Shown in pieces: positions 2,756 to 60,870 of a DNA stretch of 64,000 nt (its first letter is position 1; each line of letters opens with the position of its first letter). Origin of the DNA: Prorocentrum cordatum (taxonomy: Eukaryota > Sar > Dinophyceae > Prorocentrales > Prorocentraceae). The DNA lies in assembly GCA_963575745.1 (NCBI GenBank), contig CAUYUJ010020516.1:442936-506935 (forward strand), given 5' to 3'. A program made the position numbers and the translations under genes. The notes beneath the pieces were generated by a model, which was not told the DNA's origin, did not search any database, and saw only the letters and a list, made by a program, of their open reading frames with translations.

Positions 2756-5700
2756 CTAGAATCAGAGGAAGCTGCATGCAGCCACCAACTTTCGAAGGTC
2801 CGCGGAGATCTCGTGGGTCGGCGCTGGGCCCCATCGGTGGCGCCAGAGACGCCGCCAGGGGGGTCCAGCGCAGACATGAGACGCCCGAGCGGAACTCCGA
2901 AACCTGTCACGGCAATGCAATTTGTTCTTCCTCTTCGAGCACCGAGGTTCATGAGGACAACCATCCCGTAGATGTGGTAGAAGGGCAGCACCGCAATGGC
3001 CGTGTCGGAGGGCCCGTGCGGGGCTCGGCCGTCCAGGAACACGCCCGGCGCGCTGAGCTGCTCCAGGTTGGCGACGATATTCGCGTGGGTGAGCATCGTT
3101 CCTCTGTGGGACCCCGCGCGCGTAACTATATACACCGAGGTGATTCTCGGTGACCTGACACACTGCGTTTTGGCAAGCCATGGCATGAACATAACAACTC
3201 GGACGTCCGTGCGGGTTTCTTCAGCAGGGACCGACCGACCCGGCATTCGTATCGGCCGAAATGTTCGGATAACCAGAACAGGGTTCTGAGAAGTGAAGCC
3301 CGATGTGTCAAAACAAAACGCTCTCAGCAAGACCTGTTCTCAAGAGCAGCGCCCGCTGACCACAAAAAGGCTTCGTGCAGGCCTGCAGGCGCGCCGGGAC
3401 GCCTCGCCACTGCTTGAAACTGGGGGAGCGAGCACCGGCATGAACAGCACAGCTCGCACGCCCGTGCGGCTCTCCCGGAGGAGGAGGAGGAGGGGGAGGA
3501 GGAGGAGGCGGAGGAAAAGGAGGAGGAGGGAGAGGAGGGAGAGGAGGAGGAGGAGGAGGAGGAGGAGGAGAAGGAGGAGGAGGAGGGAGGAGGAGGAGGA
3601 GGGAGAGAGAGGAGGAGGAGGAGGAGGCGGAGGAGGAGGAGGAGGAGGAGGAGGAGGAGGAGGAGGAGGGAGGAGGAGGAGGAGAAGAAAAAGGAGGAGG
3701 AGGAGGAGGCGCTGGACTCCCCCGCCGCCGGGGGGGGGGCTCCGACGCCGCTCCCGAGGCATCTGCGCGGACCTCCAGGTTTGTTTTATGCGTGTGGCAT
3801 GGCTTCTCAACGCCAAAACTCACAGGGCAGCTCTTAATACTTGGGACATTCAAAAGTATAGGATTTTAATACAAGATCAATTTATGCCATAAATGCATGC
3901 ATGAACTCATCGTTGTTTTTAGTACTAACCCCCGGCATTTTTGATACATGATCCGCACGCAGAACAAGTATGAAAACGGCACTGTAAATACACCATAGAA
4001 CAGCCCCAATCAACGGATGATAAAAATGTCGGTAAAGAGATCGACCTGGAGCCTGGGAAACAAAGAACCTGGAACTCACCGAAATCGGCCCAGAACCCAT
4101 GGCCAAAATTCCGGGAACCCGGAACTGGGAGCCCGGGAACCCAGCCGGCCACCAAACTCGGCGGGAAACGTTCGCCAAATCTTTCAATTTCCTCAAGAAC
4201 CCCTTCAGTGCAAGCACTGATAGGGGAATAGACATAATACAGTGGGCATTTTCTTGGCACCCGCTCTGGGCCACCCCCCCATCGTACTCTTGCTCCTGCT
4301 CCTGCCTTCTGCCCCTGGTGGGACACAAAAAGATAACGAGGCTGCCCGTCTGTGGACCGTCCACAGGCTGCGTTCTGACTCGGGTCCAGGAGCGAGCCCA
4401 GGCGTTGCGATGGTGGCCCAGCAAAGGAGACTCCAAAAGGCGAAACGAGAGAAGGGCATCGGCCTTGGAAAATGTTCCTTCTCTGATGCTCTTCTCCCTC
4501 CCCGACATCGTTCCTATGGCCAAGCCCCAGATCCTCGACGTCGTGTTCTTTTGGCGACGTAGACTCCAAGATATCTCGACCCGTGACTGGCGTTTGATCC
4601 CGACGAGTTTTGCCGAAGGTCCTGGGGCCGAATAAGGGCGCCCCAGACTCGGAAAATTGTAAAAACAACCAACAAAAAGCAGCACAAATATTGCCGACGC
4701 GACTCCTTTACGACGCGAGAGAGTCTGGGCCTTCCTCCCCCAGTGCCGCTCCTTTGGACAAGCCCGTTGTGCCGCTGGAGTACGGGAGAACGCACACGTC
4801 CCTGACTGGATCAATGGCTACCGGTGCTGGATCGCCGCCGACGTCGAGAGAACCGAACTCGGCGTAGCCCGTCGGCGCCTTCTCTGCTCGGCCGGCCTCC
4901 TCCTCCCCCATGCTGCCTCTCATCCACAAGCCCTCTCGCGACGTGACAAGATCCCAACGGGCGATTGCTGGCAGATTCCTGCCTCTGCGGGTGACCTCTC
5001 CGCGGCCCCGTGGGCGTCCACAAAAAGAGCCTGGATGAAAAAACAGTCCCGTGGAACAGCAAATGATCGTTCTGGGGACCGTCCTGGAACCACTCGCTCC
5101 ATTCATGCGTCGATGCTGCGTCGAACGTCCAGCGACATGAATTGAACTCGGGTCGAGCTTGAACTGAGCTAGAATTGACCTAGAAACTAAGAAGATCCGA
5201 ACTAGAGCTGGACTAGAGTCCGTCAGGGGAGCCCCCAGAAGGAACGTAAAACCAAGGAAGAATCGAGGCATCTCTGGGCCCATGCTGCTGCGGAGAAGGA
5301 CTACGTTGGGGGTCTGACGCCCCTGCTCCCTCCGTCATCCCCCGCATCGCCGCCTCCTCGGCCGTCACAAATATCCTGCGCATCGGCCTCTTCTTGAGCC
5401 TCACCGCCTCCTCGACCTTCTCCAGGAACGCTGGAGCGGTCACGAGGTACACGGCCTGGCGAGCGTTTTTTTTACTCGGCGCTTCGACATTGGGCGGAAG
5501 GGGGGTGGGGGAGGGGGGGGGGGTCTGGTTCCAGATCTCTGCTTCGTGCGACTGTTTGCAAGAGTGCTGCCTCTGGGGGAGACTCCGCCCGCTCGAAACA
5601 GGCGCCAAAGAACAGCCAGAATCTACTCGATGGGTGGGGTGAGTGAGGGGGGGGTGCGAGGGCCCGCGCCGATCGATAAAGAAAGGATCACCTGCGCGTC

Positions 5701-9280: not shown

Positions 9281-9427
9281 GAGTCGGGCCTGTCCCCCTA
9301 TAGGCGGATTTTCGACGAACAAAAACAAAACTAGAAAACTACACCAAAAATTACAAAACAAATCGTCCCCAGACTATTTCTATACTATTCTTGGATATTC
9401 CTCCTGTAGAGAGACACGCCCGACTCA
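9281..9427. mobile_element. F3 copy
   Basis: GAGTCGGGCCTGTCCCCCTA then TAGGCGGATT at the left; ATTCCTCCTGTAGAGAGACA then CGCCCGACTC at the right; AAAACAAAACTAG interior. Confidence 0.8.
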
Positions 9428-10239
9428 AGCTTACTCCCGAGCCTTCTGAGAAGGCCTTCTCCTTCTCACTTGCCCCCCTCGTTCGCCGCCGAGCCTGGGC
9501 GCAGGAGGGACACTGGACTCGCGCACGACGACGGGGCGACCCGCGCTCTGTCCGTGCAGCCGTCGTGCCACCGAGCGGCACGCCGGAGGCATCGCGGTGG
9601 CCCTCGGTCCGGCGGCGGGCCTCGGCCACGCACGGGCGTATTGACAGGGCCTGCAGCCGAGGAGCGGTCCGAGGAGCAGCACCCCTCCTCTCAGCCCAAG
9701 GTCTCAGCTCAAAGGTGGTCTATACTGATGTCGGCGTCTTGGCTGTGCTGTGCCAGCCCCTGGTCCAGCGAGGGGCTAGAGAGGGGATGGACAAGAACGA
9801 AGCCCCTGGAAGCCAGACTTCTTGATCCGTGCCTTGCACTCTTGGCGTCTAGAGATGGAGGCGGCGGTAGCTGGGAGTATGGATAACACGCCGATGGCCG
9901 AACGACGACGTGGCGACCTGAGGCAGGCAAAATACGTGGAAGAGAGGGCGCTTACTCGTAACCTTGTAAGGGCAGCTTGCGCGCGAATGTCAACACAGTC
10001 GACGAGCTTTCTCTACATCGCCCACCTGTGAATTGGCGAACTTGGACGCCCTCGAGAGTACATAGTCTGTCAAGGTGGACTTCTTGTCAATCTCGACGTC
10101 TGGAATCGATGAACGGATGATCGGCATCGCCAGGTCTGGTGCGGAGCTCGATGCGTATCAAGTACCGCGGCCTCTCGCTAGGGAAGCCTGTAGAGATGCT
10201 CGAGCCAAGCGCACGGAGTTTTAAAGGCGACCCTCTCCT

Positions 10240-17660: not shown

Positions 17661-17790
17661 GTCCTCCTCCTCCTCCTCCTCCTTCTCCTCCTCCTCCTCC
17701 TCCTCCTCCTCCTCCTCCTCCTCCTCCTCCTCCCTTTCCGTCTCCTCCTCCTCCCTTTCCGCCTCCTCCGCCTCCTCCTGGGGTGCGCGG
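17661..17790. repeat. TCC tract
   Basis: CTCCTCCTCC with two CTCCCTTTCCG variants at the end. Confidence 0.95.
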
Positions 17791-26756: not shown

Positions 26757-27102
26757 CGAAGAAGGGGAGGAGGATAAGGAGGTGGAGGAGGGGGAGGGGG
26801 AGGAGGAGATGGAGGAGGAGGAAGAGAAGGGAGCAGAAGGAGGAGGAGGAGGAGGAGAAGAAGGAGGTAGATGAGGAGGAGGAGGAGGAGGAGGAGGAGG
26901 AGGAGGAGGAGGCAGAGGAGGCAGAGGAGAGAGGAGAGAGAGAAGAGGGAGAGAGGAGAGAGAGAGAGGAGGAGGAGGAGAGGAGGAGGGAGGAGGAGGA
27001 GGGAGGAGGAGGAGGAGGAGGAGGAGGAGGAGGAGGAAGAAGAAGGGGAGGAGGGAGGAGGCGGAGGAGGAGGAGGGAGGAGGGAGGAGAGAGGAGGAGG
27101 AC
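26757..27102. repeat. GGA tract flanked by GCGACCC / TGTCGCC
   Basis: About 345 bases of GGA, GGGA and GAGA. It is preceded by TATGCGACCCGAAG and followed by ACGTGTCGCCGAAGCCC, TTCGGAGAAACCC. The same flanks occur around the 28.3-28.9 kb tract. Confidence 0.9.
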
Positions 27103-28305: not shown

Positions 28306-28910
28306 CCCGAGGAGGAGGAGGAGGGGGAGGAGAAGGAGGAGGCGGAGGAGGAGGAGGAGCAGGAGAAGATGGAGGAGGGGGAGAGGGAGGAGAAGATGGA
28401 GGAGGAGGAGGAGGAAGAGGAGGAGGAGGAGGAGGAGGAGGAGGAGGAAGAGGAGAGGAGGAGGAGGAGGAGGAAGAGGAGGAGGAGGAGGAGGAGGAGA
28501 GAGGAGGAGGAGGAAGAGCAGGAGGAGGAGGAAGAGGAGGAGGAGGAGGGGGAGGAGGAGGAGGAGGAGGAGGAGGAGGAGGAGGAGGAGGAGGAGGAGG
28601 AGGAGGAGGAGGAGGAGGAGGAGGTGTGGGAGGAGGAGGAGGGAGGAGGAGGAGGAGGAGGCGGAGGAGGAGGAGGAGGAGGAGGAGGAGGAGGAGGAGA
28701 AGGAAGGAGGAGGAGGAGGAGGAGGAGGAGGAAGAGGAGGAGGAGGAGGAGGAGGAGGAGGAGGAGGAGGAGGAGGAGGAGGAGGAGGAGGAGGGAGGAG
28801 GAGGAGGAGGAGGAGGAGGAGGAGGAGGAGGAGGAGGGAGGAGGAGGAGGGAAGAGGAGGAGGAGGAGGAGGAGGAGGAGGAGGAGGAGGAGTAGGAGCA
28901 GGAGGAGGAC
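28306..28910. repeat. 600-base GGA tract flanked by TAGGCGACCC / GGGTCGCCTA
   Basis: The longest purine tract of the window. Its flanks TAGGCGACCC (28298-28307) and GGGTCGCCTA (28911-28920) are exact inverted repeats. After it come AAGCCCTCCGGAGGAACCC, matching the right flank of the 26.8 kb tract. Confidence 0.95.
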
Positions 28911-29326: not shown

Positions 29327-29930
29327 TCTCTCCTCCTCCTCCTCCTCCTCCTCCTCCTCCTCCGTTTTGCGTTGGGCAATGGCCAGCTTGCTTAAGCCGT
29401 CGCGTCTTCGTCCACCTGCCATTCCTCCTCCTCCTCCTCCTCCACCTCCTCCTCCAACTCCACTTCCTCCTCCTCCTCCACCTCCTCCTCGAGGAGAAGG
29501 AAGGGCATAAGCAGACACTGTTGGAGGTCCGCGCGGACCTCCCACAAATGATGTTTACGCCTCTCTTTCTTCTTCGACCTCCGCCGCCGCCTCCTTCTCC
29601 TCCTCCTTCTCCTCCTCCTTCTCCTCCTCCTCCGCCTCCGCCGCCTCCTCCTTCCTCCTCTTCACTTCCTCGACTTTCCTCCATCCCCCTCTTGCTCCTC
29701 CTCCTTCACTTCCGCCTCCTCCCTCTCGTTACCCCCTCCCTTCACTTCCTTCGCCTCCTCCACCTCCTCCTCTTCATCCTCCTCCGCCGCCTCCTTCGCC
29801 TCCTCAACCTCCTCCTCTTCCTCCTCCTCCTCCGCCTCCTCCTCCCTCTCCTCCTGCCTCTCATTTATTTCCTTCGCCTCCTCCGCCTCTGCCTCTTCCT
29901 CATCCTCCTCCGCCGCCTCCTCTTCCGACC
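29327..29930. repeat. TCC-rich region interrupted by an F1 element
   Basis: Imperfect TCC, with CTTCGCCTCC and CGCCGCC variants; the minimal F1 copy (29504-29561) sits in it. The apparent plus-strand frame is a Leu/Pro run. Confidence 0.95.
29504..29561. mobile_element. minimal F1 copy without a loop
   Basis: GGCATAAGCAGACACTGTTGG, then AGGTCCGCGCGGACCT, then CCCACAAATGATGTTTACGCC. Only the two arms are left, forming an almost uninterrupted palindrome inside a long TCC-rich region. Confidence 0.75.
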
Positions 29931-40123: not shown

Positions 40124-40367
40124 ATATGCTACTCTCACCTGTTTTTGTGCACTCCGCCAGGGAGCTTGTCAGGCCAGGACCTCTGGGGGCTACTCAGGGG
40201 TTAACCCAGGAGTTGGGAGAGGTCCCGTCCCATCAGCGGCCACCAAGGGCCTCCCAACCCGCCTGGCACAGCCGTGGCGCTTAAGCACCCGCGCTGCGTC
40301 CCAGACGCGCTGGGCCCTTGCCCCGCCGGGAGGTTAAACGTCACCAACCCCTGACCCCCTAGCTCTC
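40124..40367 (-). repeat. split direct repeat B2 (element 3' end)
   Basis: Outer copy of the 244-base B repeat. Its outer edge (ATATGC) joins a TATAC/ATGTA microsatellite at 40030-40123. The 79 bases between it and A2 have no full match elsewhere, but CTGGCAAAA and CTGTCT words recall the inner borders of B1 and A1. Confidence 0.9.
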
Positions 40368-40446
40368 GTCCTGGCAAAAACTCGCGCGGAGGCAGGCACG
40401 GCCACGCGCGAGACGGTAGCAATGCTGCCCCCTGTCTGTGGGTGGG

Positions 40447-40548
40447 CCAACACAGCTACGGAAGATGGATGAAACTCACGCTATCCATCAACGGCGTCGC
40501 GCACGCTCAGGTGGACTCCGCATAGGTTTCCTTGGAAGGTTCATATAT
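40447..40548 (-). repeat. split direct repeat A2
   Basis: Second copy of the 102-base A repeat, same orientation as A1. It shares the last four bases (ATAT, 40545-40548) with the start of B1, so the two repeats abut as in a recombined circle junction. Confidence 0.9.
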
Positions 40549-40788
40549 GCTACTCTCACCTGTTTTTGTGCACTCCGCCAGGGAGCTTGTCAGGCCAGGA
40601 CCTCTGGGGGCTACTCAGGGGTTAACCCAGGAGTTGGGAGAGGTCCCGTCCCATCAGCGGCCACCAAGGGCCTCCCAACCCGCCTGGCACAGCCGTGGCG
40701 CTTAAGCACCCGCGCTGCGTCCCAGACGCGCTGGGCCCTTGCCCCGCCGGGAGGTTAAACGTCACCAACCCCTGACCCCCTAGCTCTC
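40545..40788 (-). repeat. split direct repeat B1
   Basis: 244 bases starting ATATGCTACTCTCACC and ending CCCCCTAGCTCTC on the plus strand, matching 40124-40367 with no difference seen. It is the internal copy, next to the recombinase remnant. The plus strand of both copies has a short open frame (from TGFVHSARELVR); coding is not proven. Confidence 0.9.
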
Positions 40789-40984
40789 TCCACGGTCCCT
40801 ACCCTGGCAAAAGCCGCTCCTTCTTGCTACTTATGCCCTCCACCTTGGTGTAATGACATGAGGGAAGAAAGGTGGAGGATGGGCGGGACAAACAGACAGG
40901 CAGCTCAAAGCAAGAACAGTCCATCTCGCCTCTGCTCGCAGGCATGTGCGAGCAGGTTGCAGCGCCTCCGCTGCGCGGGCGAGA

Positions 40985-41420
40985 GATTTAATTCAGTGGC
41001 TTCGGCGACGGCATCATGGACGTAAAAGCGGGCCGTGCGCGCCGATGCCATCTGCCTCGGAGCAGCGTCTGCTCATGGAGCTGTGGCTGCGGAAGTCGGC
41101 GGAGGCGCCTCCTGACGCCAGCTGTAAAGAGTGAGCTTGGCATCTTGCAGCTCCAGCAGCTCACGTACGCGGCCGAAAGTGGCATGAAACTGCTTGGCTC
41201 CATCTCGAGGCACCAGTCTTGTCCGTGCGCCTGAGCCTTTGCTCTGGCAAGGAGGGTGACCGCTACACCGCTCCGCACGAGCACGAACTGACGGGCACCA
41301 GTTTAATGCTGGCTCTTGGTGCTGCACAGCTGCAGCACGGTCATTTGGCGGACTGGATACAGCTGTACATCAGACCACGCGAGCGAGGTCAACTCCCTTG
41401 CCGGAGGTAAGCGTCGTAGC
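40985..41420 (-). pseudogene. tyrosine recombinase catalytic domain, frameshifted
   Basis: Directly after the long frame ends, other minus frames carry recombinase signatures in the right order. They are ARELTSLAWSDVQL (about 41400-41360, the first catalytic Arg box R.xEL..L.W.DV), LTLYSWRQ (about 41135-41110, the HxxR/SxRRGGAS region), SGGASADFRSHSS in the neighbouring frame, and LLRGRWHRRARP with TSMMPSPKPLN (about 41065-40988, the GRW box; a neighbouring frame reads FYVHDAVAEA, holding the likely nucleophile Tyr). At least three frame changes are needed to read them together, so the recombinase is broken in this copy unless frameshifting or assembly errors explain it. The call rests on motifs, not on an alignment. 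Confidence 0.6.
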
Positions 41421-44400
41421 CTGCTGCCAGCACCGCCGCAGCGCCACGCTGGCCCACGGCCGCCAATGCACCTGCGAACGCTGCTGTAGGACTGATCGGC
41501 AGCGCGCGCCCAGCTGACTCCAGGCGCTGCCGTTTGGCCAGCGCCCGCTGTCCCACAGGTGCCCTCGCACGGGCGGGAAAGCGTGCATGATGCCTGGAAT
41601 TGCATTATTAAGTTCAACTAGAGATTCTCCGCTCAGCCAACGGCTCCCGATGAAGGCGGCCACGCCAGCGTCGACCTGAGCGGGCGTCTGCGGCTGCCGG
41701 TGCTCCTGAATCCAGAAAACAACGACCTCCTCGACCGCCGCACGATGCCGCCGCAGGGTGAGCGGCGTGTCCAACGCCCCCTCGGCGGCTGGGACCTCGC
41801 TGCAGCTCGTTGCGCCATCGCCTGGGCCGTGACCCGGCTCACCTTTGCTGGTGCTTGCGCTGCCCGCTTGCCAGGGGCGGCTCTCCTGGCTCTCGCCGGC
41901 GGCAGCACTGGCAGCGGGGCAGCGGCGGCCGAAGCCCCAGCGGGGCGGCGTGTCGGCGGGCATGTCGACGGTGTCGCAGTACTGGTACAGCGGGTACCTG
42001 GCCGTCGCGTGGAGCAGGGAGTTGAGCTGGCGGAGCGCGGGCTGCAAAGCCCTCACGCTCGATCTGCCCTTGGTGCTGACTGCCGTGAACGGTTGGGCAT
42101 CCAGAAAGGGCAGGCAGCGGCAGCGGTGGCTCTCACCTGCTCGGCACCTCCAACGTGCTCCAGCCACCGCAGCCTCCAGCTCCAGCGCTGAGATGTGCCC
42201 GGGCCGCTGCCAGCGCAAGCCTGGCTGCTGGAAATCGGGGAACACGTTCCAGCTCGCCTCAGGCACGGGCAGTTGGCCCCGCTGACGCCTCGCGTCCCAG
42301 ATGAGGCTGCCGTCCCCGTAGTTGTCGACCTGGTAGCGGTAGCTGTCGGCAGCCCAGCGCCCCGCGGCCAGCACCGAGGCGCAGTCGGGGCCCACGGGCC
42401 GGAACGGCGGGTGGCGTCCCGGGATCGGCCTCGTGAAACACGGGAGGTCCGCCTCTGGGTCCAGCGTCGACCAGCCCTCCAAGACCGAGGTATTCAGTGG
42501 GAGCCTCTCCACCACAAGCAAAACCTCGAAGCTCGCGGCCTCCCTCACGCCCTTGGTCTCGTCAGTGACGTCGGACGCCGTGAACGCCGTGACGGGCCAC
42601 GAGCACCAGTACAGGCGCGGCCGCTTGACGTGGGCGTGACACCTGGGCCCGAGGAACACGGGCGTGACACCCAGCGCCCTGGAGAACTCCGCCCTCGACT
42701 CCAGGGTCATGCTGGACACGTTCTCGACAAACACCACGGAGCGCTCAGGACAGGCAACCTCCGCTGCCTGCGTCAGCTCGGGGACCGTGAAGAAGAGCTT
42801 CGGCCTCGACCCCTCTAGGTCGGTCCCCGCGACATTGATGCTTGCAAGATCTTGGCTCGGGCTTCCCGCGCTCAAGACGACCCGGTCGGCGTCCCGCGCG
42901 TAACCCTTCAGCATCTCCGTGAACCGCACCGTGTCGACGGCCTCGACGTTGCCAAGCTTGGTCACGCCCGCCAAACGGCGACGCACCAGTCGCCAGGCAG
43001 CGGGCTCAACCTCGCACCTGACGGGGGCGATCATGTCGATCGGGAGTCTGGAGGCCCCCACCGCGGCCCCAGCACCGCCTGCGTAGAGCTCGATGAGAAC
43101 GAAGCGAGGGCGCCACCGCGCACCACGCACAGGAGCCGCAACTGCACCAGGCCGCAAAGTCACTGCTAAAGCTCCTCCCCTCGCGCAGGCAACGCCCTGC
43201 GCCGAGAGCCCAGCCGTGTGGCAGATGTCCCCAGCGCGCTCACTGGCATCGGTCGCGATGTCACAAATGACGATCTTTGCGCGCAGGTCGGTGTATGCCA
43301 GCGGCAGCGCCTTCGCGAAGCCCAAGAGCTCGTCGCACATTCCAAGGGGATCAGCCTGCGGTCGCGCCCAGCACCCAGCAGCCCCCACGCTGTTGAGGAA
43401 CCCCATAGAAGGCCTCCTGAACTCCGCTGCCCTGACGCACCTGCCCCGGACCATGAGCATGCCCTGCGTCGAGAGGCCCTGTCTGCCCATGCCGCACAGG
43501 ATGAGCGCGAGCGTCCGGTGCAGCTTCTCGGCCGTGACTCCGACCTGGCCGACGGCCCCGTCAAGACCTGCGCCCAACTGCACCAGGACCAGCGCGCGGC
43601 GCTTGACCTTGCCGGGGGCGTCGCTGGTCCCCGAGCCGCCGTAGGCGGCCCTCTGCTTCTCCGGGGCGCAGCTCACCGTGCCGATGAGCTCCGCGACCAA
43701 CGCGCTGGGCACCCCCTCGCCATGGTCCCAGTCGTCGATGCAGTACTGGACCCACTGCTGCTCGAGCTCCTTCGACCTGGTCGGATGTTGGCGGTCCCTG
43801 TGCCACTCGAGATCCGCAGGGAACCCTGAAGCGAGGGGGCGAGCGCCGCCCCCGAGGCGCCTGTGGCAGTGCTGAAACTCCGCGTCCGCTATGATCCAGC
43901 CCAGCGGGAAGACGAGCAGCGCGAGGTGTGTCTTCCCTGGACCCGGCACACCGATGAGCTCGTTTGGGATCGCCTCTGCGAGGGCCACGTGTGGCTGCCA
44001 AGCCTCGGGCAGCTCGCAGCCGTAGAAAGCGGAGGCCAGGTCATCTGAGGACCCGAGCAGCATGTGCCCCTCTGGGAGCGGGACGGCGACCCCCGAGGGC
44101 GATGCACTTAGGGTCCCAATGCCGTCCTCCATGATGCGCTGGTAGCTGTCGGCCGAGACCATGTTGATGATCAGGCGCTGGGCGCACGCCTGGCCGGGTG
44201 ACCGCGTGCCGCCCTGGGCGACCCTGAACGCCCCAGCGAGCACCCTGCGGCTCCCGACCTTGAAGATGCGGTCGTCGGCGATCGGCGCAGCCAGCCCCAG
44301 CTTGACAAGCTTGGTCCCGATGCGGTACCACTCCTGCTTGGACGTGACCTGGATCGCCGCTTGCGGGACCTCGGCAGGCGACTCATCCCGAGGGAGCAAA

Positions 44401-47132
44401 GCCAGCGTGGGGCCGGCACGCCCGGCGCCCGCCTGAGCGTCCGCGAGGTCGACCGCCTTGACCGATGCGGGGTCGCCCTGCGCGGGGAGGCCTGGCATGT
44501 TGCCTGCAAGCGAGAGCGGCGGGGCGCGGGACATCACCTTGCCCCCGTGGGAGACGGTCTTCGACGCGATGACCTGGTCCCAGTCCGGGAGCTCGAACGC
44601 TGCGGCAGGATCCTGAACGAAGTTCGCACACCCCTCCTGCACAATGCCGAGCGCACTGGCCAGACCTGCCGTGGGCCGCACTGCGGCGTCGGTTGGACAA
44701 CGCATGTGCCCCATGTACGAGTAGTTCAGGCTGAAGTCCACGAGCAGGGCCCGCCCCTGCGCCGTCGCGGCGTCCACCTCGCAGGTCTCCGACAACTGCT
44801 GGTGCAAGTACCAGGCGGCACGGTGCCTCTCGAAGAGTGGGGCGTCGGGCAACGGTGACGGCAACACCTCGCGCAGCCGCGCGAAGCTGGCCGTGGGGTC
44901 TGGCGAAGTGCACATCTCGCAACCATACCGCCCGATCGCCCCTGGCAAACCGTGCACCGCCTCGTGGACCGCGAGAGGGAGCCTGAACTTGGAGCTGACA
45001 CCTGTGCCCACCTCGGCTGGCATCTGGCGCCACCGCCGCGGCTGCGAGCTGCCGCGCAGCTGCCGCTCAGGCGGGCAAAGGGCAGGCGGAGGCGTGCGCG
45101 AGGCCGCGGCCTCCGCAGCGTCAGTCCTCACGCCTAAACCCGGGCTGTCCTGCGAGCAGCGCTTGTGCCGCGGCTCTTCCCCGTCTTGCCTTCGCCGCGG
45201 CTCTTGGCAGACGGCGGCCTCCCCATGCGCGCCTTCCACGCCGCCTGGGTCTCGCCCTCGCGCCTCGGGTGGGCCGCCTTGTGCTGCGAGAAGCCCCGGC
45301 CCGTAGCCGCGTCCGCTGGTGGCACGCGGGCGGCGGCAGCTGCGTCGAGGTCCCCCTTGAAGTCGCTCAGGAGCTGGTCCGACCGCGTGGGACTGCAGCT
45401 GGTCCTCCGCGCTGCTGGCGGCTTCTTCCCGGCGCGGAGAGCTGCGGGAACGTCGCCTGGGACTCGTTCGGGAAGGATCCTCATCGCCTTGGCCGATCCT
45501 GAAACTGGCGTCCCGGGAGCAGAGGGGCCGGCGGCGCGCCTCCGCGCGCCCATGGCCTGCAGGTGCCGTCCTTTGCAGCAACGGAGGCGGCTCCCGGCCA
45601 GGCCCCCAGCCTGGCCTGCGGTCTGCAAGTCGCTGGCGGAGTTTGGCGACCTTCAGCTCCCGGGCCTCGACCTTCTCGGCAGCGTTCTCCTCGCCCAGAG
45701 AGGTGCCTGACGGAAGCTGTTCCTGCGAGTCCAGCGTGAGCCATCGCGCCGATTGCCAGTTCCCGTCGCGGATGCCCATCGACCGCGCCTTGAACCTCAG
45801 CATGACCAGATCCGCAGTCTTGATGACCTTCCTGCGCACGATGCCGTCGAGCGCCAGCCCTGGCGGGCGGAGGACCCGCCCCTCGACTGCCCCCAGCGTC
45901 CGCGGCGGGTGAGCAACGAAGAGCACCGTGTACAGGAACTGTGTGACACCTGGGGCCAGCAGGTCGGCCTCGCCTGCGGACAACTGCTGAGTGAACTGGC
46001 TGCACAGGTGGCCAAGCCCATTCACGAGGAGAGCGGCGGGCCGCTGTCGAGCGATCCAGCCGAACAAGTCGCGCTTGCAGCTCACGCCCTGGTAGTGGTC
46101 GCAGCCCCCAAGGCGCTCTGTGACGCTCTCCACGCCGTCCTCCACGTCGTCGTCGTCGCGGTCCAGGAGTGCCGTGGTCACGGCCGATGCTGGCCTGCTC
46201 CTCCTCCTCGAGGCGCCAGTGCGCGCTGGGGCAGCAGCGGCGGCTCGGTCAGCAACCTCCTGTGCCAGGCGCTCGCCTATGGCTCCTGCCGGACGCGCAG
46301 CGTTCTTGGGCGTGCCCTGCCTCGGCACATCACGAGCTGCCCTGCCCTCCAGCCGCGCCAGCCGCGCCTCGAGCGCGGGGTCCTCGGCGGTCTCCTCGAG
46401 CCCGGCGATCTCCTGGTCGAGCGGGCCCGCCTCTCCTGGACCGCCCGGGGTCTGGGTGCCCTTCACCTCGCGGGCGCACATGTGCGGGGGCCCGCGAGGC
46501 TTCTCCTCGACTTTGTTGCCCCATCCCCGAGCGGCCAGCCGCCGAGCTCTCCAGGCAATGGCTCGGCCGCGGGCGAGGCGGTCCGCACAGGCGCCCCAGG
46601 AACCGCTGCTAGGCAGATGAGCTTCGCCCGCTCGCGGGCCACGCCGCCGTGGCCCATCACCTGCCACATGTCCAAGTGCTCGACCACAGCACCAGCTGGA
46701 GCGACCGTCCCGCACTTGTTGGCGCTGCACCTGCAGAGGTGGAAGACCGTGGCCGCGCGATGTGCGCCCCGCTGCCCGCAGGAGGCTGCCTACCATGAGA
46801 AGTACGTGTCGCTGGCGCCCACCTGCCGGGCCTTGATGAATCTGCCGATGGTGTCCGCCTGGTAGGCGACCTCGACCTCGAGCATCTCGACGCCCTGCGG
46901 CGCCGCTGGGTCGTCCTAGACCCGCGCCAGGACCCGTGCCCCAGCCCTCGGCGGCAGCCCCGCCACCAGCTCGCCGTTCAGCGCCGCGTCGAGCCAGGCT
47001 CCACTCGAAGAGGGCCAGCCGCCGGCAGCTGGGGCTGCCCGCTCCATCGGGCTCCTCGCCAGCAACTAAGCGGGAGAGGGGCGACCCGCGCCCGGGATCC
47101 TCGTCTCCCAGCCAGGTCTTCGCTCCCCTCAA
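41370..47132 (-). CDS. RT - RNase H-like - C5-methyltransferase - recombinase polyprotein
   Basis: A 1920-codon open frame; counted from codon 1 (a TTG, so not a proven start) it stays open upstream to a TGA near 47218 with no clear ATG. RT spans about residues 925-1200: motif A DLASAFYGCELP (1031-1042), FPLGW, and CIDD (1131-1134), where the usual aromatic residue is Cys. An RNase H-like patch is CDIATDASERAGD (1290-1302). A C5-cytosine methyltransferase domain spans about 1343-1525: motif I ELYAGGAG (1348-1355), motif IV GSPSQ (1423-1427) with Ser for the catalytic Cys, ENV (1470-1472), and RPRLYW (1504-1509). Residues 1790-1880 resemble the core-binding domain of tyrosine recombinases. Residues 1-240 and about 505-690 look like out-of-frame readings, so the frame is a composite kept open by high GC. 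Confidence 0.8.
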   Translation of the reverse strand: MRGAKTWLGDEDPGRGSPLSRLVAGEEPDGAGSPSCRRLALFEWSLARRGAERRAGGGAAAEGWGTGPGAGLGRPSGAAGRRDARGRGRLPGGHHRQIHQGPAGGRQRHVLLMVGSLLRAAGRTSRGHGLPPLQVQRQQVRDGRSSWCCGRALGHVAGDGPRRRGPRAGEAHLPSSGSWGACADRLARGRAIAWRARRLAARGWGNKVEEKPRGPPHMCAREVKGTQTPGGPGEAGPLDQEIAGLEETAEDPALEARLARLEGRAARDVPRQGTPKNAARPAGAIGERLAQEVADRAAAAAPARTGASRRRSRPASAVTTALLDRDDDDVEDGVESVTERLGGCDHYQGVSCKRDLFGWIARQRPAALLVNGLGHLCSQFTQQLSAGEADLLAPGVTQFLYTVLFVAHPPRTLGAVEGRVLRPPGLALDGIVRRKVIKTADLVMLRFKARSMGIRDGNWQSARWLTLDSQEQLPSGTSLGEENAAEKVEARELKVAKLRQRLADRRPGWGPGREPPPLLQRTAPAGHGRAEARRRPLCSRDASFRIGQGDEDPSRTSPRRRSRSSPRREEAASSAEDQLQSHAVGPAPERLQGGPRRSCRRPRATSGRGYGPGLLAAQGGPPEARGRDPGGVEGAHGEAAVCQEPRRRQDGEEPRHKRCSQDSPGLGVRTDAAEAAASRTPPPALCPPERQLRGSSQPRRWRQMPAEVGTGVSSKFRLPLAVHEAVHGLPGAIGRYGCEMCTSPDPTASFARLREVLPSPLPDAPLFERHRAAWYLHQQLSETCEVDAATAQGRALLVDFSLNYSYMGHMRCPTDAAVRPTAGLASALGIVQEGCANFVQDPAAAFELPDWDQVIASKTVSHGGKVMSRAPPLSLAGNMPGLPAQGDPASVKAVDLADAQAGAGRAGPTLALLPRDESPAEVPQAAIQVTSKQEWYRIGTKLVKLGLAAPIADDRIFKVGSRRVLAGAFRVAQGGTRSPGQACAQRLIINMVSADSYQRIMEDGIGTLSASPSGVAVPLPEGHMLLGSSDDLASAFYGCELPEAWQPHVALAEAIPNELIGVPGPGKTHLALLVFPLGWIIADAEFQHCHRRLGGGARPLASGFPADLEWHRDRQHPTRSKELEQQWVQYCIDDWDHGEGVPSALVAELIGTVSCAPEKQRAAYGGSGTSDAPGKVKRRALVLVQLGAGLDGAVGQVGVTAEKLHRTLALILCGMGRQGLSTQGMLMVRGRCVRAAEFRRPSMGFLNSVGAAGCWARPQADPLGMCDELLGFAKALPLAYTDLRAKIVICDIATDASERAGDICHTAGLSAQGVACARGGALAVTLRPGAVAAPVRGARWRPRFVLIELYAGGAGAAVGASRLPIDMIAPVRCEVEPAAWRLVRRRLAGVTKLGNVEAVDTVRFTEMLKGYARDADRVVLSAGSPSQDLASINVAGTDLEGSRPKLFFTVPELTQAAEVACPERSVVFVENVSSMTLESRAEFSRALGVTPVFLGPRCHAHVKRPRLYWCSWPVTAFTASDVTDETKGVREAASFEVLLVVERLPLNTSVLEGWSTLDPEADLPCFTRPIPGRHPPFRPVGPDCASVLAAGRWAADSYRYQVDNYGDGSLIWDARRQRGQLPVPEASWNVFPDFQQPGLRWQRPGHISALELEAAVAGARWRCRAGESHRCRCLPFLDAQPFTAVSTKGRSSVRALQPALRQLNSLLHATARYPLYQYCDTVDMPADTPPRWGFGRRCPAASAAAGESQESRPWQAGSASTSKGEPGHGPGDGATSCSEVPAAEGALDTPLTLRRHRAAVEEVVVFWIQEHRQPQTPAQVDAGVAAFIGSRWLSGESLVELNNAIPGIMHAFPPVRGHLWDSGRWPNGSAWSQLGARCRSVLQQRSQVHWRPWASVALRRCWQQATTLTSGKGVDLARVV
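42558..43106 (-). other. C5-cytosine methyltransferase domain inside the retroelement ORF
   Basis: FVLIELYAGGAG is the AdoMet-binding motif I (DLFAGxGG type). About 70 residues on comes VVLSAGSPSQDLASINVAG, aligned with the catalytic loop G.PCQ..S..G; then LEGSRPKLFF (family GxRSxLF), VVFVENVSSM (the ENV motif IV/VI Glu) and KRPRLYW (the QxRxR-like motif VIII). Spacing and order fit the DNMT catalytic half. A single T to A change (TGC to AGC, codon at 42857-42855) would explain the loss of Cys. The target-recognition part after motif VIII is short or not recognisable. Confidence 0.8.
43533..44360 (-). other. reverse transcriptase domain of the retroelement
   Basis: Recognisable landmarks are RLIINMVSADSYQRIM, DLASAFYGCELPEAW (metal-binding Asp of motif A), LLVFPLGWIIADAEFQ (motif B region) and QYCIDDWDHG (motif C). 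The form, with DL..AFY and FPLGW, resembles RTs common in dinoflagellate hypothetical proteins. The Tyr-x-Asp-Asp box reads Cys-Ile-Asp-Asp; whether this is native to the family or a mutation cannot be told here. Confidence 0.75.
45134..45628 (-). other. likely true reading frame of the hinge region
   Basis: In this overlapping frame the sequence reads SDQLLSDFKGDLDAAAAARVP, then GRGFSQHKAAHPRREGETQ, AAWKARMGRPPSAKSRGEGK and SRGTSAARR, with Lys/Ser/Arg composition typical of a linker in dinoflagellate retroelement proteins. The long frame over the same bases is an Arg/Gly/Pro jumble. This suggests a pair of compensating frame changes at about 45630 and 45130. Confidence 0.4.
46463..46885 (-). 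pseudogene. retroelement N-terminal segment in another frame, with an internal stop
   Basis: Beside the long frame, an overlapping minus frame reads more like protein: MLEVEVAYQADTIGRFIKAR, YFSW, a TAG stop (46792-46790), FHLCRCSANKCGTVAPA, then VVEHLDMWQVMGHGGVARE and KLICLA. The C.C....C spacing may be part of a zinc-binding site. The long frame over the same bases is Arg/Gly-rich and protein-unlike. A frame change back to the long frame is likely near 46480-46520, before KVEEKPRGPPHM. It could be a gag-like N-terminus; no family recognised. Confidence 0.45.
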
Positions 47133-47288
47133 CCCGCCAAGGCTGCCAGCGAGGCTGATCAGAATCAGTCGTCGGAGCGTGGCCCTGCAAGCGGCCGCGC
47201 GAGCGCGGCAGTCTGACAGTAGTCAGAGTGGCTCGGCAGCGGCCACAGACGGGCGGCACCGCCCGGTGACTCCGCTGCCTGTCTCAAA

Positions 47289-47390
47289 CCAACACAGCTA
47301 CGGAAGATGGATGAAACTCACGCTATCCATCAACGGCGTCGCGCACGCTCAGGTGGACTCCGCATAGGTTTCCTTGGAAGGTTCATATAT
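47289..47390 (-). repeat. split direct repeat A1 (element 5' end)
   Basis: 102 bases matching 40447-40548 with no difference seen. On the plus strand it starts CCAACACAGCTACGG and ends GGAAGGTTCATATAT. It lies about 70 bases upstream of the first in-frame stop before the long frame, and borders a TATAC microsatellite outside. Confidence 0.9.
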
Positions 47391-50521: not shown

Positions 50522-50960
50522 TAGGCATGAACTTCCGGAGGTCCGCGCGAAGTTCACAGGTCTCCTCCTCCTCCTCCTCCTCCTCCTTCCCTTCCCCCTC
50601 CTCCTCCCCCTCCTCCTCCTCCTCCTCCTCCTTCTCCTCCTCCTCCTCCTCCCTCTCCTCCTCCTCCTCCTCCTCCTCCTCCTCCTCCTCCTCCTCCTCC
50701 TCCTCCTCCTCCTCCTCAGGAGCCCTCCGACGATTGATGCTCCTGAATCGGTGGGTGGCGGGGGCAGGGGTTCGGGCTTCGCCACGCGTTCGACGGAGAG
50801 TCCGAGCCGTACCCCCGCCGCCCATCACTTTGCCTGTGTCGTTGATCGGCGAGGGCCGGGTTCGGACTTCAGGGCCGATTATTTGGATCGGCGCTGGGCC
50901 CCCCCTTTCCGGCGCGCGGAGCGCGCAAGGGGCAGCGCCAGAGGCGCCGCCAGCGCCAAC
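50522..50960. mobile_element. F1 element broken up by a TCC tract (probable)
   Basis: A left arm (GGCATGAACTTCCGGAGG, TCCGCGCG) is followed by the TCC tract 50560-50718 and other sequence. The F1 centre (GGATCGGCGCTGGGCCC, CGCGCGGAGCGCGC, GGCGCCGCC) appears at 50890-50955. A right arm is not visible. Confidence 0.45.
50560..50718. repeat. TCC tract
   Basis: TCTCCTCCTCCTCC with CCTTCCCCCTCC variants, placed after an F1 arm (50522-50560). Confidence 0.95.
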
Positions 50961-52019: not shown

Positions 52020-54172
52020 AAGGACCCTTGCAATCCACACAAGAAGCGGCAAGACACGGGCTGGCCCTCCCAAGCAATCACGAGCGTGAACACTATGGCA
52101 TATCGCAGCCGCCCACCCCCGGGACGGCGAGGTCTTGATCTGATCAGCGTACGACGTCGCTGCGACGGGCCTCCCAGAAGCTCAACAAAGTGGCGACGGC
52201 TTCGCAGATCGAAAACCCCCAGGGATGGCGAGATGTCGACGTGATGCGCGTAAGACGTCACTGCCCTGGCCCTCCCGGGGGTTCACGCAAGTGGCGACAC
52301 ATTCGCAGATCGCAAGCCCCCAGGGACGGCGAGGTCTCGATCTGATCCGAATACCGTGGCGACTGTTTCGCCGATCGCCCCCCCCATGGACGGCGAGGTC
52401 TCGATCTGATCCGCGAACGACGTCACTGCGCTGGCCCTGCCAAGCCCTCACGGCAGTGGCGACCCGCGCCGCCCATCGCAGCCCACCACGGACGGCGAGG
52501 TCTCAATCCGATGCGTGTAGGACGTCACTGCGATGCCAGCCTCCCAGGGATGGCGAGGTCTCGATCTGATGCGCGTGAGATGTTACTGCGCCTGCCCTCC
52601 CAGGAGCGCACGCACAGGGCCACGGCTTCGCAGATCGCAGCCCCCCACGGACAACACACGTTCGATCTCACCTGCGTAGTACGCAACTGCGCCGGCTGCG
52701 GAAGGAGCTCACGACCGTGGCGACTACTTCGCACAATGCAGCCCGCCAGGAACGGCGTGGTCTCGAACTGATCTGCGCACGACGTCACTGCGCTGGCCCT
52801 CCCAGGAGCTTGCGAACGTGGCGACGGCTCCGTCAACGGCAGCCCCGAAGGGACGGCGCGGTCTGGATCAGCTCTGCGAAAAGCGTCACTGCGATGGCTT
52901 CCACAGGAGCTCACGAACGTGGCGACGGCTTGGCAAATCGAAGCAGCGCAGGGGCTGCGAGGTCTCAATCTGCTCTGCGTAGGACGTCACTACGCTGGGC
53001 CTCCCAGGAGCTCACAAAAAATGTAGAGAACGATTCGCAGATGGCAACCCCTCTCCCAGGAGCTCACGCACGTGGCGACGGTTTCGCTCGCAGCCCTCCA
53101 AGGGCGGTAATACCTCGATCTGATCTGTGCATGACACCTTTCCGCTGGACCTTGCCGGAGCTCGCGAAAGTGACGACGGTGCTGCAGATCACAGCCACCC
53201 AGGGGCGGCGACGGCTCGATCCTACCTGCGCAAGACGCCAAAGGAAGTGCCACCATGTTTGCGAGTCGATGCCCCCCAGGGGCGGCGAAGTCTTCATGTG
53301 ATGCGCGCAGGACACCACTCACCTGGCCCTCCCACGAGAACGCGCAAGGGGTGACGGCTTCGCAGGTCGCACCCCCCCCCCTTGGGACGGGCAGACGCCA
53401 TCCGGTCTGCGCAAGACGTCACTGCGCTGGCCCTGCCAAGCCCTCACGGCAGTGGCGACCCGTGCCGCCCACCGCAGCCCCCCACGGACGGCGAGGTCTC
53501 GACCTGGCGCGCATGAGGCGCCGCTCCGCTGGCCCTCGCAGGGGCTCACGAACGTGGCGATGGTTTCGCAGATCGCAGACCCCACAAGGACAGCGAGGTC
53601 TCGATGTGATGCGCGTGAGACGTCACTGCGCTGGCCCTCCTAGAGATCGCAGCCCCCCACGGACGGCGAAGTCTCGGTCCCATCTGCGTAAGACGTCACT
53701 GCGCTGGCCCTGCCAAACACTCACGGAAGTGGCGACCGTGTCGCACATCGCAGCCCCCCAGGGACGGCGAACTGTCCACCTGATGCGCGTAGGACGCCAC
53801 TTCGCTAGCTCTCCCAGGAGAACACGAAAGTGGTGACGGTTTCGCAGGTCGAAGACCCCCTGGGACGGCAAGTTCTCCATCTGATCTGCGTAAGGCGTCA
53901 CTGCACTGGCCCTCCCAGGAGCTCACGGAAGTGGCGACGTTCTCGCAGATCTAAAACCCCCCCAGGGACGGCGAAATGTCGACCTGTTGCGCGTAAGACA
54001 TCAGTGCGCTGGCCCTCCCAGGGGCTCACTATAGTGGCGATAATTTCGCAGATCGCAGCCTCCCAGGGACGGTGAGGTCTCGATCTGATCCAAATACGTC
54101 CTCGTTGCGCTGGCCCTCCCAGGAGTTCACCAACGTGGCGACAGTTTCGCAGGTCGCAGCCCCCCAGGCAGC
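52020..54172. repeat. satellite array, period about 100 bases
   Basis: About 20-22 units with the order CAGCCCCCCAGGGACGGCG, AGGTCTCGATCTGATGCGC, GTAAGACGTCACTGCGC, TGGCCCTCCCAGGAGC, TCACGAACGTGGCGACGG, TTCGCAGATCG. GACGTCACTGC recurs at about 52255, 52419, 52521, 52781, 52982 and so on; some units are short (58-65 bases). Frames read as a roughly 34-residue repeat but with many breaks, so coding is unlikely. Confidence 0.9.
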
Positions 54173-54216: not shown

Positions 54217-54378
54217 TAGGTCGGGCATGTCCTCCTACAGACATGTTCTCGACGAACAATAAAACATTGTTAAAACAACTACTAGAAACATGCTCAAACA
54301 CATGAAACACAAATCTTCCCCAGACTATGTTTTAACTATGGTTGAATATTCCTCCTGTAGAGGGACACGCCCCACTTA
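54217..54378. mobile_element. F3 copy
   Basis: TAGGTCGGGCATGTCCTCC then TACAGACATG at the left; CCTCCTGTAGAGGGACACG then CCCCACTTA at the right; AAAACATTGTTAAAAC interior. It directly follows the 52.0-54.2 kb satellite. Confidence 0.8.
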
Positions 54379-54825
54379 AGGATAAGGGAGGAGGAGACGC
54401 GCGAGCGCTTCTGTTCAAAACGAAGCCCCAACCACAGAAGGGTTGGGGAAATTCGCATCTCCGGATGTCTGGGGATCTGCGCGGCCCGCCACGAGCGCGG
54501 AGAGGCCCTAAGGCGAAGCCAAGACAAGTCGGACCAGGATGAACCGGGGGATGTGTGAGATCCGGCGACTCTGGGCGCGTCGTGCGCCGCTGCCTTTTCG
54601 ATGATCCTCAGATCGTGTGTTAGCCCCAACGTGTGTTTGTCCATCGAGGTCCTTCAATACGACGCAGGCGATGCAATGATCTACTGGTTGGGTTGGTTGG
54701 GCTGAAGGGGGTCACACACACATTGGGCTAACACGTCCTGAGGATCATCGAACTTTCCAGAGCGCTCAAAAACGCTTGGGGAGCGTTCTGGAACGCTCTG
54801 GAGCGATTTATCCCGGCCCTACCCA

Positions 54826-55695: not shown

Positions 55696-55857
55696 TAGGT
55701 CGGGCATGTCCTCCCACAGGCGGATCTTGCGCGAAAAATCAAAAGTATACGCAAAACAAATCTCAAGACATAGCCAAAAGATGTTCCAAAAATAGTAGCC
55801 AAATCATGTTTGGATTATTTTTGACCATTCCTCCTGTAGAGGGACACGCCCGACTTA
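55696..55857. mobile_element. F3 copy
   Basis: TAGGTCGGGCATGTCCTCCC then ACAGGCGG at the left; CCTCCTGTAGAGGGACACG then CCCGACTTA at the right. An F4 element starts 4 bases after it. Confidence 0.85.
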
Positions 55858-55860
55858 ACT

Positions 55861-56392: not shown

Positions 56393-56792
56393 TAGATCGG
56401 GCATGTCCCACGGCGGGATTTTGGACAACAAAAAAAGAATTCGAACTACACCAAACAAAAACAACCAATAGATGGTTTGAAATGGGATCGATAAAGAGAT
56501 CGGTAAGGAGATCCGGGAACCCGGGAACCTGGGAACCCGAACCCATCGGGATCGGCCTGGGACCAATAACCAAACACCCGGGAACCCGGAACCGGGAACC
56601 CAGGAACAAGGCCGGCTACCACAATCGGCGGGAAACTTTCGCAACATCTGTCAGTTTCTGCTAGGACACCTTCAATGCAAGCACTGATCGGACAAAATGT
56701 TCAAAACATATCAAAAATGCTAAAAAAACGTCCCCCGAGTATGGTTTGACTATTTTTGAAGATCCCTCCTATAGAGGGACTGATCCGACTTA
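56393..56792. mobile_element. F3 element enlarged by a nested F12 repeat
   Basis: The ends TAGATCGGGCATGTCCC and CCTCCTATAGAGGGAC, then TGATCCGACTTA are about 400 bases apart instead of about 160. The extra DNA is the F12 repeat (56476-56690), so F12 moved into this copy. Confidence 0.7.
56476..56690. repeat. F12 dispersed repeat, nested in an F3 element
   Basis: GGTAAGGAGATCCGGGAACC to CAATCGGCGGGAAACTTTCG and CAATGCAAGCACTGATCGG; about 75-80 percent like 4027-4232 by eye. Confidence 0.75.
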
Positions 56793-56828
56793 AGCCTAAC
56801 GTGTTGCTCCTGGCAAATTCGAAAAAAA

Positions 56829-59896: not shown

Positions 59897-59901
59897 GACC
59901 G

Positions 59902-60745
59902 AGGCGTGCGGAGTGAGGCTCAGAGGATCAGGCAGGGGACCCGAGGGTGGGGCGCGATGCGTCGGAGCGTCCAGGATGGTCTCGGCGACCAGGCAACAAT
60001 CACTGATGCTGCTTGGGGGCGTCCAGGATGGTCTCGGGGCGTCCAGGATGGTCTGGGCCCGTGTTGGCCTCCCGAATGGGGGAGATACTGGCCCCTCCCC
60101 CATGATTGATTTGATCGATCTCCTCCAAAATTGCCCCACTGCTAAATGTTCCCAAAAGTACCCCAGGAGGCGCCCACTCCGTGCCCGGAGGCACGGCGGC
60201 GGAGTAGAACAGACTTCTGTTCTGGCAGCATGTCGTGGCAGGCCTATAGGGATGCTGGGAGGGCCAGCCCCTACTGCCAGACAGGGGGCCACATGCGAAC
60301 CCTACCCCTACCCTCCCCCTCAGAAATCGTGGGGGGTAGGGGTAGGGTTCGCATGTGGCCCCCTGTCTGGCAGTAGGGGCTGGCCCTCCCAGCATCCCTA
60401 TAGGCCTGCCACGACATGCTGCCAGAACAGAAGTCTGTTCTACTCCGCCGCCGTGCCTCCGGGCACGGAGTGGGCGCCTCCTGGGGTACTTTTGGGAACA
60501 TTTAGCAGTGGGGCAATTTTGGAGGAGATCGATCAAATCAATCATGGGGGAGGGGCCAGTATCTCCCCCATTCGGGAGGCCAACACGGGCCCAGACCATC
60601 CTGGACGCCCCGAGACCATCCTGGACGCCCCCAAGCAGCATCAGTGATTGTTGCCTGGTCGCCGAGACCATCCTGGACGCTCCGACGCATCGCGCCCCAC
60701 CCTCGGGTCCCCTGCCTGATCCTCTGAGCCTCACTCCGCACGCCT
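59902..60745. repeat. 844-base near-perfect palindrome
   Basis: Two arms of about 412 bases (59902-60313 and 60334-60745) are inverted copies around a loop of about 20 bases centred at 60323.5. Both strands therefore encode the same 244-residue open frame except at the centre, and I saw no mismatch in the arms. Each arm includes smaller nested inverted repeats (around CAGACTTCTGTTCTG and the CACATGCGAACC / GGTTCGCATGTG pair near the centre). The outer flanks are not part of the palindrome. Confidence 0.9.
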
Positions 60746-60870
60746 TGGGAGCTCACTTCGCTCGGCTCACTTCGCTCGGAAGCTCCCGAGCGAAGTGAAC
60801 CCCACCCTCCCCCTCGGAAATCGTGGGGGGGGGGGGGTAGGGGTAGGGTTCGCATGTGGCCCCCCTACCG
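60746..60870. repeat. snap-back sequence right of the large palindrome
   Basis: GAGCTCACTTCGCTCGG and TTCGCTCGGAAGCTCCC face CCGAGCGAAGTGA, then the CCCTCGGAAATCGTGGGG and GGGTTCGCATGTGGCC words of the palindrome core occur again. It is a partial extra copy of the core. Confidence 0.6.

Follow-up and report, generated by a model that had tools for sequence, protein, structure and literature searches.

What kind of mobile element lies between positions 47390 and 40124 of the window (the whole 64,000-nucleotide stretch of DNA that was analysed), and can it methylate its own DNA? A sequence-only reading had taken these 7267 bases, which run right to left on the minus strand, for a tyrosine-recombinase retroelement with split direct repeats in which a C5-cytosine methyltransferase acts on the element's own DNA copy. 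Our analysis points to a tyrosine-recombinase retrotransposon of DIRS order from Prorocentrum, akin to the SymbioDIRS-Dnmt3 elements, and to a copy of it that inserted recently and is dead at the protein level; we give this reading a probability of about 0.83.

Read along the minus strand, the element consists of A1 (102 bases), a coding remnant, B1 (244 bases), A2 (102 bases) and B2 (244 bases) (Table 1). The order A1-ORF-B1-A2-B2 had been proposed before and holds to the last base, A1 being 100% identical to A2 and B1 to B2 (346 of 346 bases), and a chance origin of 102 plus 244 exact repeat bases is not a serious option. The overlap between B1 and A2 is exactly 4 bases, ATAT, and the same ATAT starts A1 and finishes B2, so the internal block reads as an end-to-end joint with a single core. 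A 4-base target duplication alone would give the same look at the ends but would leave the single core of the internal block unexplained, and an origin of the repeats by unrelated local duplication was rejected because both the joint and the order fit split repeats. These PAT/Toc3-like or Ngaro-like ends are those of the window copy, the one copy compared, and TA-rich microsatellite DNA flanks the element on both sides. A blastn search at E 1e-3 showed no further copy of any element part elsewhere in the window, and Rfam and tRNA scans of the window gave no matches. CpG observed/expected was 0.92 in the element vs 0.87 outside it, with no depletion.

Table 1. Features of the element, with positions in the window.
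Feature	Position	Strand	Remark
Repeat A1, left element end	47289..47390	minus	102 nt, 100% identical to A2; starts ATAT
N-terminal coding remnant (gag-like position)	46487..47053	minus	frame -1, out of frame with the 1950-aa ORF
RT core motifs	43725..44048	minus	SDDLASAFYG (44019-44048), LVFPLGWI (43893-43916), YCIDDWD (43725-43745)
RNase H-like first half	43230..43256	minus	ATDASERAG, catalytic-Asp position
DNMT3-type C5-methyltransferase remnant	42258..43100	minus	C-terminal motif IX-X part deleted
Methyltransferase motif I	43065-43088	minus	
Methyltransferase motif IV	42849-42866	minus	GSPSQD
Codon AGC (Ser)	42855..42857	minus	catalytic Cys position of motif IV
Methyltransferase ENV	42708-42728	minus	
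Methyltransferase PRLYWCSW	42597-42620	minus	
Deletion junctions	42219..42258	minus	at about 42258 and about 42219, relative to P0004-P0006
RNase H-like second half	41940..42200	minus	GHISALELE, LPFLDAQPF, MPADTPPR
Tyrosine recombinase remnant	40947..41768	minus	relatives match in frames -3, -2, -1, -3
Repeat B1, internal	40545..40788	minus	244 nt, 100% identical to B2
ATAT common to B1 end and A2 start	40545..40548	minus	presumed circle junction/crossover core
Repeat A2, internal	40447..40548	minus	102 nt, 100% identical to A1
Repeat B2, right element end	40124..40367	minus	244 nt, 100% identical to B1; finishes ATAT

The window holds other repeats as well. A perfect inverted repeat at 59899-60748 (two 418-base arms, 100% complementary, with 14 bases between them) is either a very young palindrome or a fold-back artefact of sequencing or assembly. 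Five dispersed copies of one block (6738-6820, 9346-9428, 54297-54379, 55776-55858 and 56711-56793), with a conserved ATTCCTCCTGTAGAGGGACACGCCC-like core at the end, possibly represent a short non-autonomous repeat. Degenerate arrays with a unit of about 101 bases occupy 52115-54168, and long purine/pyrimidine triplet arrays (GGA/GAG, TCC/CCT/CTC) lie at 3477-3709, 17662-17779, 26766-27101, 28309-28909, 29578-29926 and 50562-50717.

A protein search with ORF residues 850-1700 returned 16 proteins at E up to 0.001, 13 of them (P0001-P0005, P0007-P0013 and P0015) labelled Prorocentrum cordatum, with P0001 98% identical over the whole of residues 850-1700. The host is P. cordatum or a near relative. 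The G+C content of the window ranges from 53 to 70% in 2-kb steps; for P. cordatum, the value in what appears to be the G+C column of a table in PMC11453091 is 59.7. The most distant match, P0016, led to 658 further relatives, the best 120 of which include gene names of Symbiodinium kawagutii (Skav...), one of the species for which passages of de Mendoza et al. (PMC5890265) describe SymbioDIRS-Dnmt3, and from their domain content we infer that the Skav... relatives are the same elements. In what follows, the set of relatives outside Prorocentrum combines the top-scoring 120 of these 658 with the top-scoring 120 of the 533 matches to a second query.

The coding remnant is not the intact polyprotein that its 1950-aa ORF might suggest, a candidate rejected because the frames switch relative to the relatives, which match the window successively in frames -1, -3, -1, -3, -2, -1 and -3. 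When read in its own frame, the ORF is matched by P0004 at about 1500 of its 1950 codons; the remaining codons, chiefly the first 245 or so and those of the recombinase, are open only through chance of frame. Part of the frame changes may be real ORF borders or introns of the gene models, but three fall within the recombinase, a domain that runs through unbroken in several relatives. The N-terminal remnant is matched in frame -1 by P0001, P0002, P0004, P0005, P0011 and P0012, and no zinc knuckle was noticed in it by eye. In gene model P0004, a ubiquitin-family domain (residues 125-190, E 1.9e-9) is joined to the element N-terminus, which is probably an artefact of gene prediction, though it may be a captured host gene.

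Profile searches matched the RT, methyltransferase and recombinase in the relatives and gave no family for the window ORF itself, where Pfam returned one unrelated sub-threshold match and NCBIfam none. RVT_1 matched weakly in 17 of 55 relatives chosen by hand from 255 (best E 0.0028, the sole score shown lying below the Pfam cut-off), DNA_methylase matched 36 of the same 55, and Phage_integrase, the commonest Pfam match of the recombinase pieces, matched 4 of 6 (best E 0.0049, with the score shown again below the cut-off). No adenine methylase, endonuclease or DDE integrase family occurred in the Pfam tables for the window ORF and the relatives. The six recombinase pieces, from P0004, P0005, P0008, P0009, P0012 and P0013, share a conserved pattern (RTGE in 6/6, SWRR in 6/6 and RGRW in the 5/5 that reach it) followed by Tyr in 4/5, with C in P0009; the roles of the RTGE, SWRR, RGRW and Y residues are those of tyrosine recombinases in general. 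Searched as a profile against PDB, the recombinase gave no matches, and its pieces gave no NCBIfam family. The recombinase looked for in the relatives is present. The RT catalytic Asp is kept in 239 of 240 aligned relatives outside the Prorocentrum set, and a poor fit of RTs to Pfam is mentioned for Symbiodinium DIRS elements in the text of de Mendoza et al. 2018 (PMC5890265).

The methyltransferase is of the DNMT3 type, and the sequence-only reading was right to see a retroelement that combines a tyrosine recombinase, split direct repeats and a C5-cytosine methyltransferase. Compared alone with solved structures, the window ORF found DNMT3A/B/C in 24 of the 25 matches listed (best E 0.027), and a profile of 78 relatives, hand-chosen from 135 with visibly broken close relatives omitted, matched DNMT3A at 1.9e-27, a second stretch covering the C-terminal motif IX-X part. 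With DNMT3A as its best match, this enzyme is C5-type and not the N6-adenine (Dam-like) methyltransferase of strict DIRS/PAT elements. The same profile matched 32 stretches at 5 loci in viral contigs, in the methyltransferase part only (residues 589-771), and viral contigs scanned with the window protein gave 3 pattern matches and no relatives.

Motif IV of the window copy reads PSQ, not PCQ. Of the 189 relatives outside the Prorocentrum set that align at the catalytic position, 188 have Cys there, and the 14 close relatives (the 13 labelled P. cordatum and the unlabelled P0006) show Cys in 7, Ser in 2, Arg in 2 and Asp in 1, with 2 gapped; this is an unfair contrast, as the outside set favours intact copies and the close set keeps broken matches. 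The Arg or Asp found in the Prorocentrum proteins P0008, P0011 and P0015 apparently reflects losses separate from the Ser of the window copy. With Ser in place of the catalytic Cys and the motif IX-X part deleted, the window copy should be unable to methylate its own DNA, and the earlier proposal of self-methylation fails for this copy.

The domain order RT, RNase H, methyltransferase, recombinase had also been proposed, and it survives for the RT, methyltransferase and recombinase; the RNase H-like motifs, however, flank the methyltransferase on both sides. The first Asp motif (DAS...GG) precedes it, and the Glu (HIN.LE), the third Asp (LTDS/LDAQ) and the last Asp (NPAD.PSR) follow. When 240 relatives outside the Prorocentrum set were aligned to P0014, these four residues were kept in 228/230, 155/155, 154/154 and 152/153, respectively, the remainder being without an aligned residue. 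The patterns of the first Asp, the Glu and the last Asp are all present in 126 of 135 relatives, and in these 126 the spacing from Asp to Glu is 388-487 (median 476) and that from Glu to last Asp is 76 in every case. Since an ordinary RNase H has about 40-60 residues between the first Asp and the Glu, some 400 or more residues, the size of a methyltransferase, appear to be inserted, and by its motifs the methyltransferase would sit inside the RNase H, with the first catalytic Asp ahead of it and the Glu behind. The identity of the RNase H rests on motifs, spacing and conservation: the joined halves gave no RNase H profile match in Pfam or PDB, weak unrelated ones only (DUF4037, with 2/12 members and best E 0.016, or a nanobody at E 0.68), and against one E. 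coli RNase HI hhalign returned a probability of 0.3% and HMMER no meaningful alignment.

No uninterrupted RNase H, as expected of DNMT-free relatives, was found among the best 120 of 533 matches to a query of about 517 aa, so that longer proteins were excluded from this search. Both the Asp and the Glu pattern occur in 34 of these 120, with a gap of 400-483 residues in 33/34; one extra chance match each in P0199 and P0250 gave gaps of 254 and 93, and P0172, where the patterns come in reversed order, was set aside as a chance match. The other 86 lack one or both patterns, many of these proteins being shortened. The nesting is shared by both dinoflagellate groups, which suggests a single capture before the groups parted; it could also stem from horizontal transfer or from two captures of one DNMT3 common to dinoflagellates. 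Median identity between the groups is 30% for the RT, 33% for the methyltransferase and 36% for the RNase H, and the methyltransferases score a median of 81 bits between groups vs 61 and 53 bits to a DNMT3A segment (5 close relatives, including the unlabelled P0006, compared with up to 150 others).

The window copy is protein-dead, with the PSQ, the deletions and the frameshifted recombinase, yet its insertion appears young. It has lost about 73 aa from the end of the methyltransferase and about 55 aa from the RNase H region. P0001 carries the same Ser, the same two deletions and the same out-of-frame recombinase tail; P0002 also has the Ser and the first deletion. P0003-P0006 agree with one another at 561 columns. 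The window copy departs from them at 155 of these, by 93 substitutions and 62 gaps, and P0001 has 148 of the 155 as well; of the two, the window copy alone is changed at 3 columns and P0001 alone at 3, all of them unchanged in P0002. The 93 substitutions amount to 18.6% of the 499 ungapped columns, the same figure as for P0001, compared with 11.3%, 10.2% and 11.1% in the controls P0002, P0010 and P0011. The more distant P0014 is changed at 39.2%, yet all eight of its catalytic positions hold the expected residue, so the fraction of changed sites alone is no proof of decay; the lesions are. Because the window copy is 77-79% identical to P0003/P0004 and 57-60% to P0005/P0006, most of the changes should come from its own line.

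Between the repeat copies, on the other hand, not one of 346 bases differs, which puts the upper 95% limit on divergence at about 0.9%. From the lesions shared with P0001 and the identical repeats, the damage most likely predates the insertion; old damage in a young insertion means that the template was probably already dead and that the proteins came from elsewhere, the window copy probably being mobilised in trans by proteins of intact relatives. Alternatively, the same element could have been inserted intact and decayed in place, its repeats remaining identical through gene conversion or a low mutation rate. P0001 could then be an allele or a segmental copy of the same insertion, and gene conversion could by itself yield the repeat identity, but changes at 93/499 conserved sites, two deletions and several frame changes would have to accumulate beside repeats that decay in place would be expected to mark too, and we consider this course of events unlikely.

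The case for a novel retroelement type, with a C5-methyltransferase that stands in for the N6-adenine methyltransferase of DIRS elements and acts on its own copy, draws on a domain content that fits the description. It is very improbable, since the methyltransferase lies by motifs inside the RNase H and not after it, the enzyme of the window copy is broken, and SymbioDIRS-Dnmt3, which precedes it as a C5-methyltransferase in a tyrosine-recombinase element, is already published (PMC5890265). Passages of that paper (de Mendoza et al. 2018), which the sequence-only reading itself had cited, describe DIRS elements with A-coding-B-A-B repeats, a Dnmt3 domain in Pol and a recombinase; two of the Dnmt3 domains give CG methylation in yeast, methylation of the cDNA is proposed, and two domain orders within Pol are mentioned, which may include the RNase H-nested one. 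The element shares with SymbioDIRS-Dnmt3 the repeats, a Dnmt3-type domain in one Pol with the RT, the tyrosine recombinase and a dinoflagellate host. It differs in that the host is Prorocentrum and not Symbiodinium, with a median identity of 30-36% between the groups, and in that the window copy, with PSQ in motif IV, is dead. The recombinase of SymbioDIRS-Dnmt3 is in a separate ORF, whereas that of the window copy is frameshifted, and Pol and recombinase form a single protein in several P. cordatum gene models, possibly through predicted splicing. This kind of element is therefore already known, from coral symbionts, and what goes beyond the passages of PMC5890265 is the RNase H nesting indicated by the motifs, a Prorocentrum host with the same nesting and the dead copy.

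Other known systems agree in part. PAT/Toc3-like DIRS elements, as passages of PMC4157794 present them, also have split direct repeats with the internal ones downstream of the recombinase, a methyltransferase and, as judged here by eye, no zinc finger; Ngaro elements have the same arrangement of repeats but are without a methyltransferase (PMC4157794), unlike the DNMT3-type domain here. DIRS elements elsewhere are credited with an adenine methyltransferase in the text of PMC5890265, in contrast to a DNMT3-type C5 enzyme nested in the RNase H. No description of a Prorocentrum host or of RNase H nesting for such elements was found in the literature outside subscription papers, as far as its passages go: PMC12344493 and PMC9998398 cite the 2018 work, with Prorocentrum absent from the main text, and PMC10449503, according to which cytosine methyltransferases are enriched about 11-fold in the P. 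cordatum nuclear fraction, cites it too, such an element being absent from its passages. For retrotransposon methylases in general, an antiviral role is suggested in passages of PMC6338049.

That a LINE or Gypsy/LTR element captured a DNMT and lies next to unrelated local duplications is hardly credible, for although passages of PMC5890265 describe SymbioLINE-Dnmt and KnitGypsy-Dnmt3 as DNMT-carrying retroelements with LINE and Gypsy machinery, the latter said to carry DIRS-like repeats, here the recombinase occurs in the same relatives, the Pfam tables hold no endonuclease or DDE integrase family, and the ATAT joint binds A and B into one scheme.

Under our preferred reading of a dead copy of a DIRS-order element, relatives with intact motifs encode the RT, an RNase H interrupted by the DNMT3-type methyltransferase and the tyrosine recombinase, and the element RNA would be copied into DNA. 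Following the circle model of the element cycle, the internal B1-A2 block, an exact joint of the ends with one ATAT core, would guide closure of a putative circle, which the recombinase would then cross into an ATAT of TA-rich host DNA. The methyltransferase, beside the RT and RNase H in one polyprotein, might methylate the new copy. As the genes for the methyltransferase, RNase H and recombinase were most likely broken before the insertion, these functions would have been supplied in trans by intact relatives.

A broader reading, to which we assign even odds, joins these strands: a DNMT3 would have been captured once inside the RNase H, in the gap between Asp and Glu, before the Prorocentrum and Symbiodinium element lineages parted, placing RNA removal and cDNA methylation in one folded unit, and Prorocentrum lineages without the catalytic Cys (Ser, Arg or Asp) would have kept spreading, methylation being dispensable in cis or supplied in trans. 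The RNase H interior thereby becomes a precise candidate capture point for DNMT3, open to structural testing. DNMT-carrying tyrosine-recombinase retrotransposons now reach beyond Symbiodinium, to a bloom-forming dinoflagellate, and the natural set of elements with and without the catalytic Cys offers a handle on what the element methyltransferase is for.
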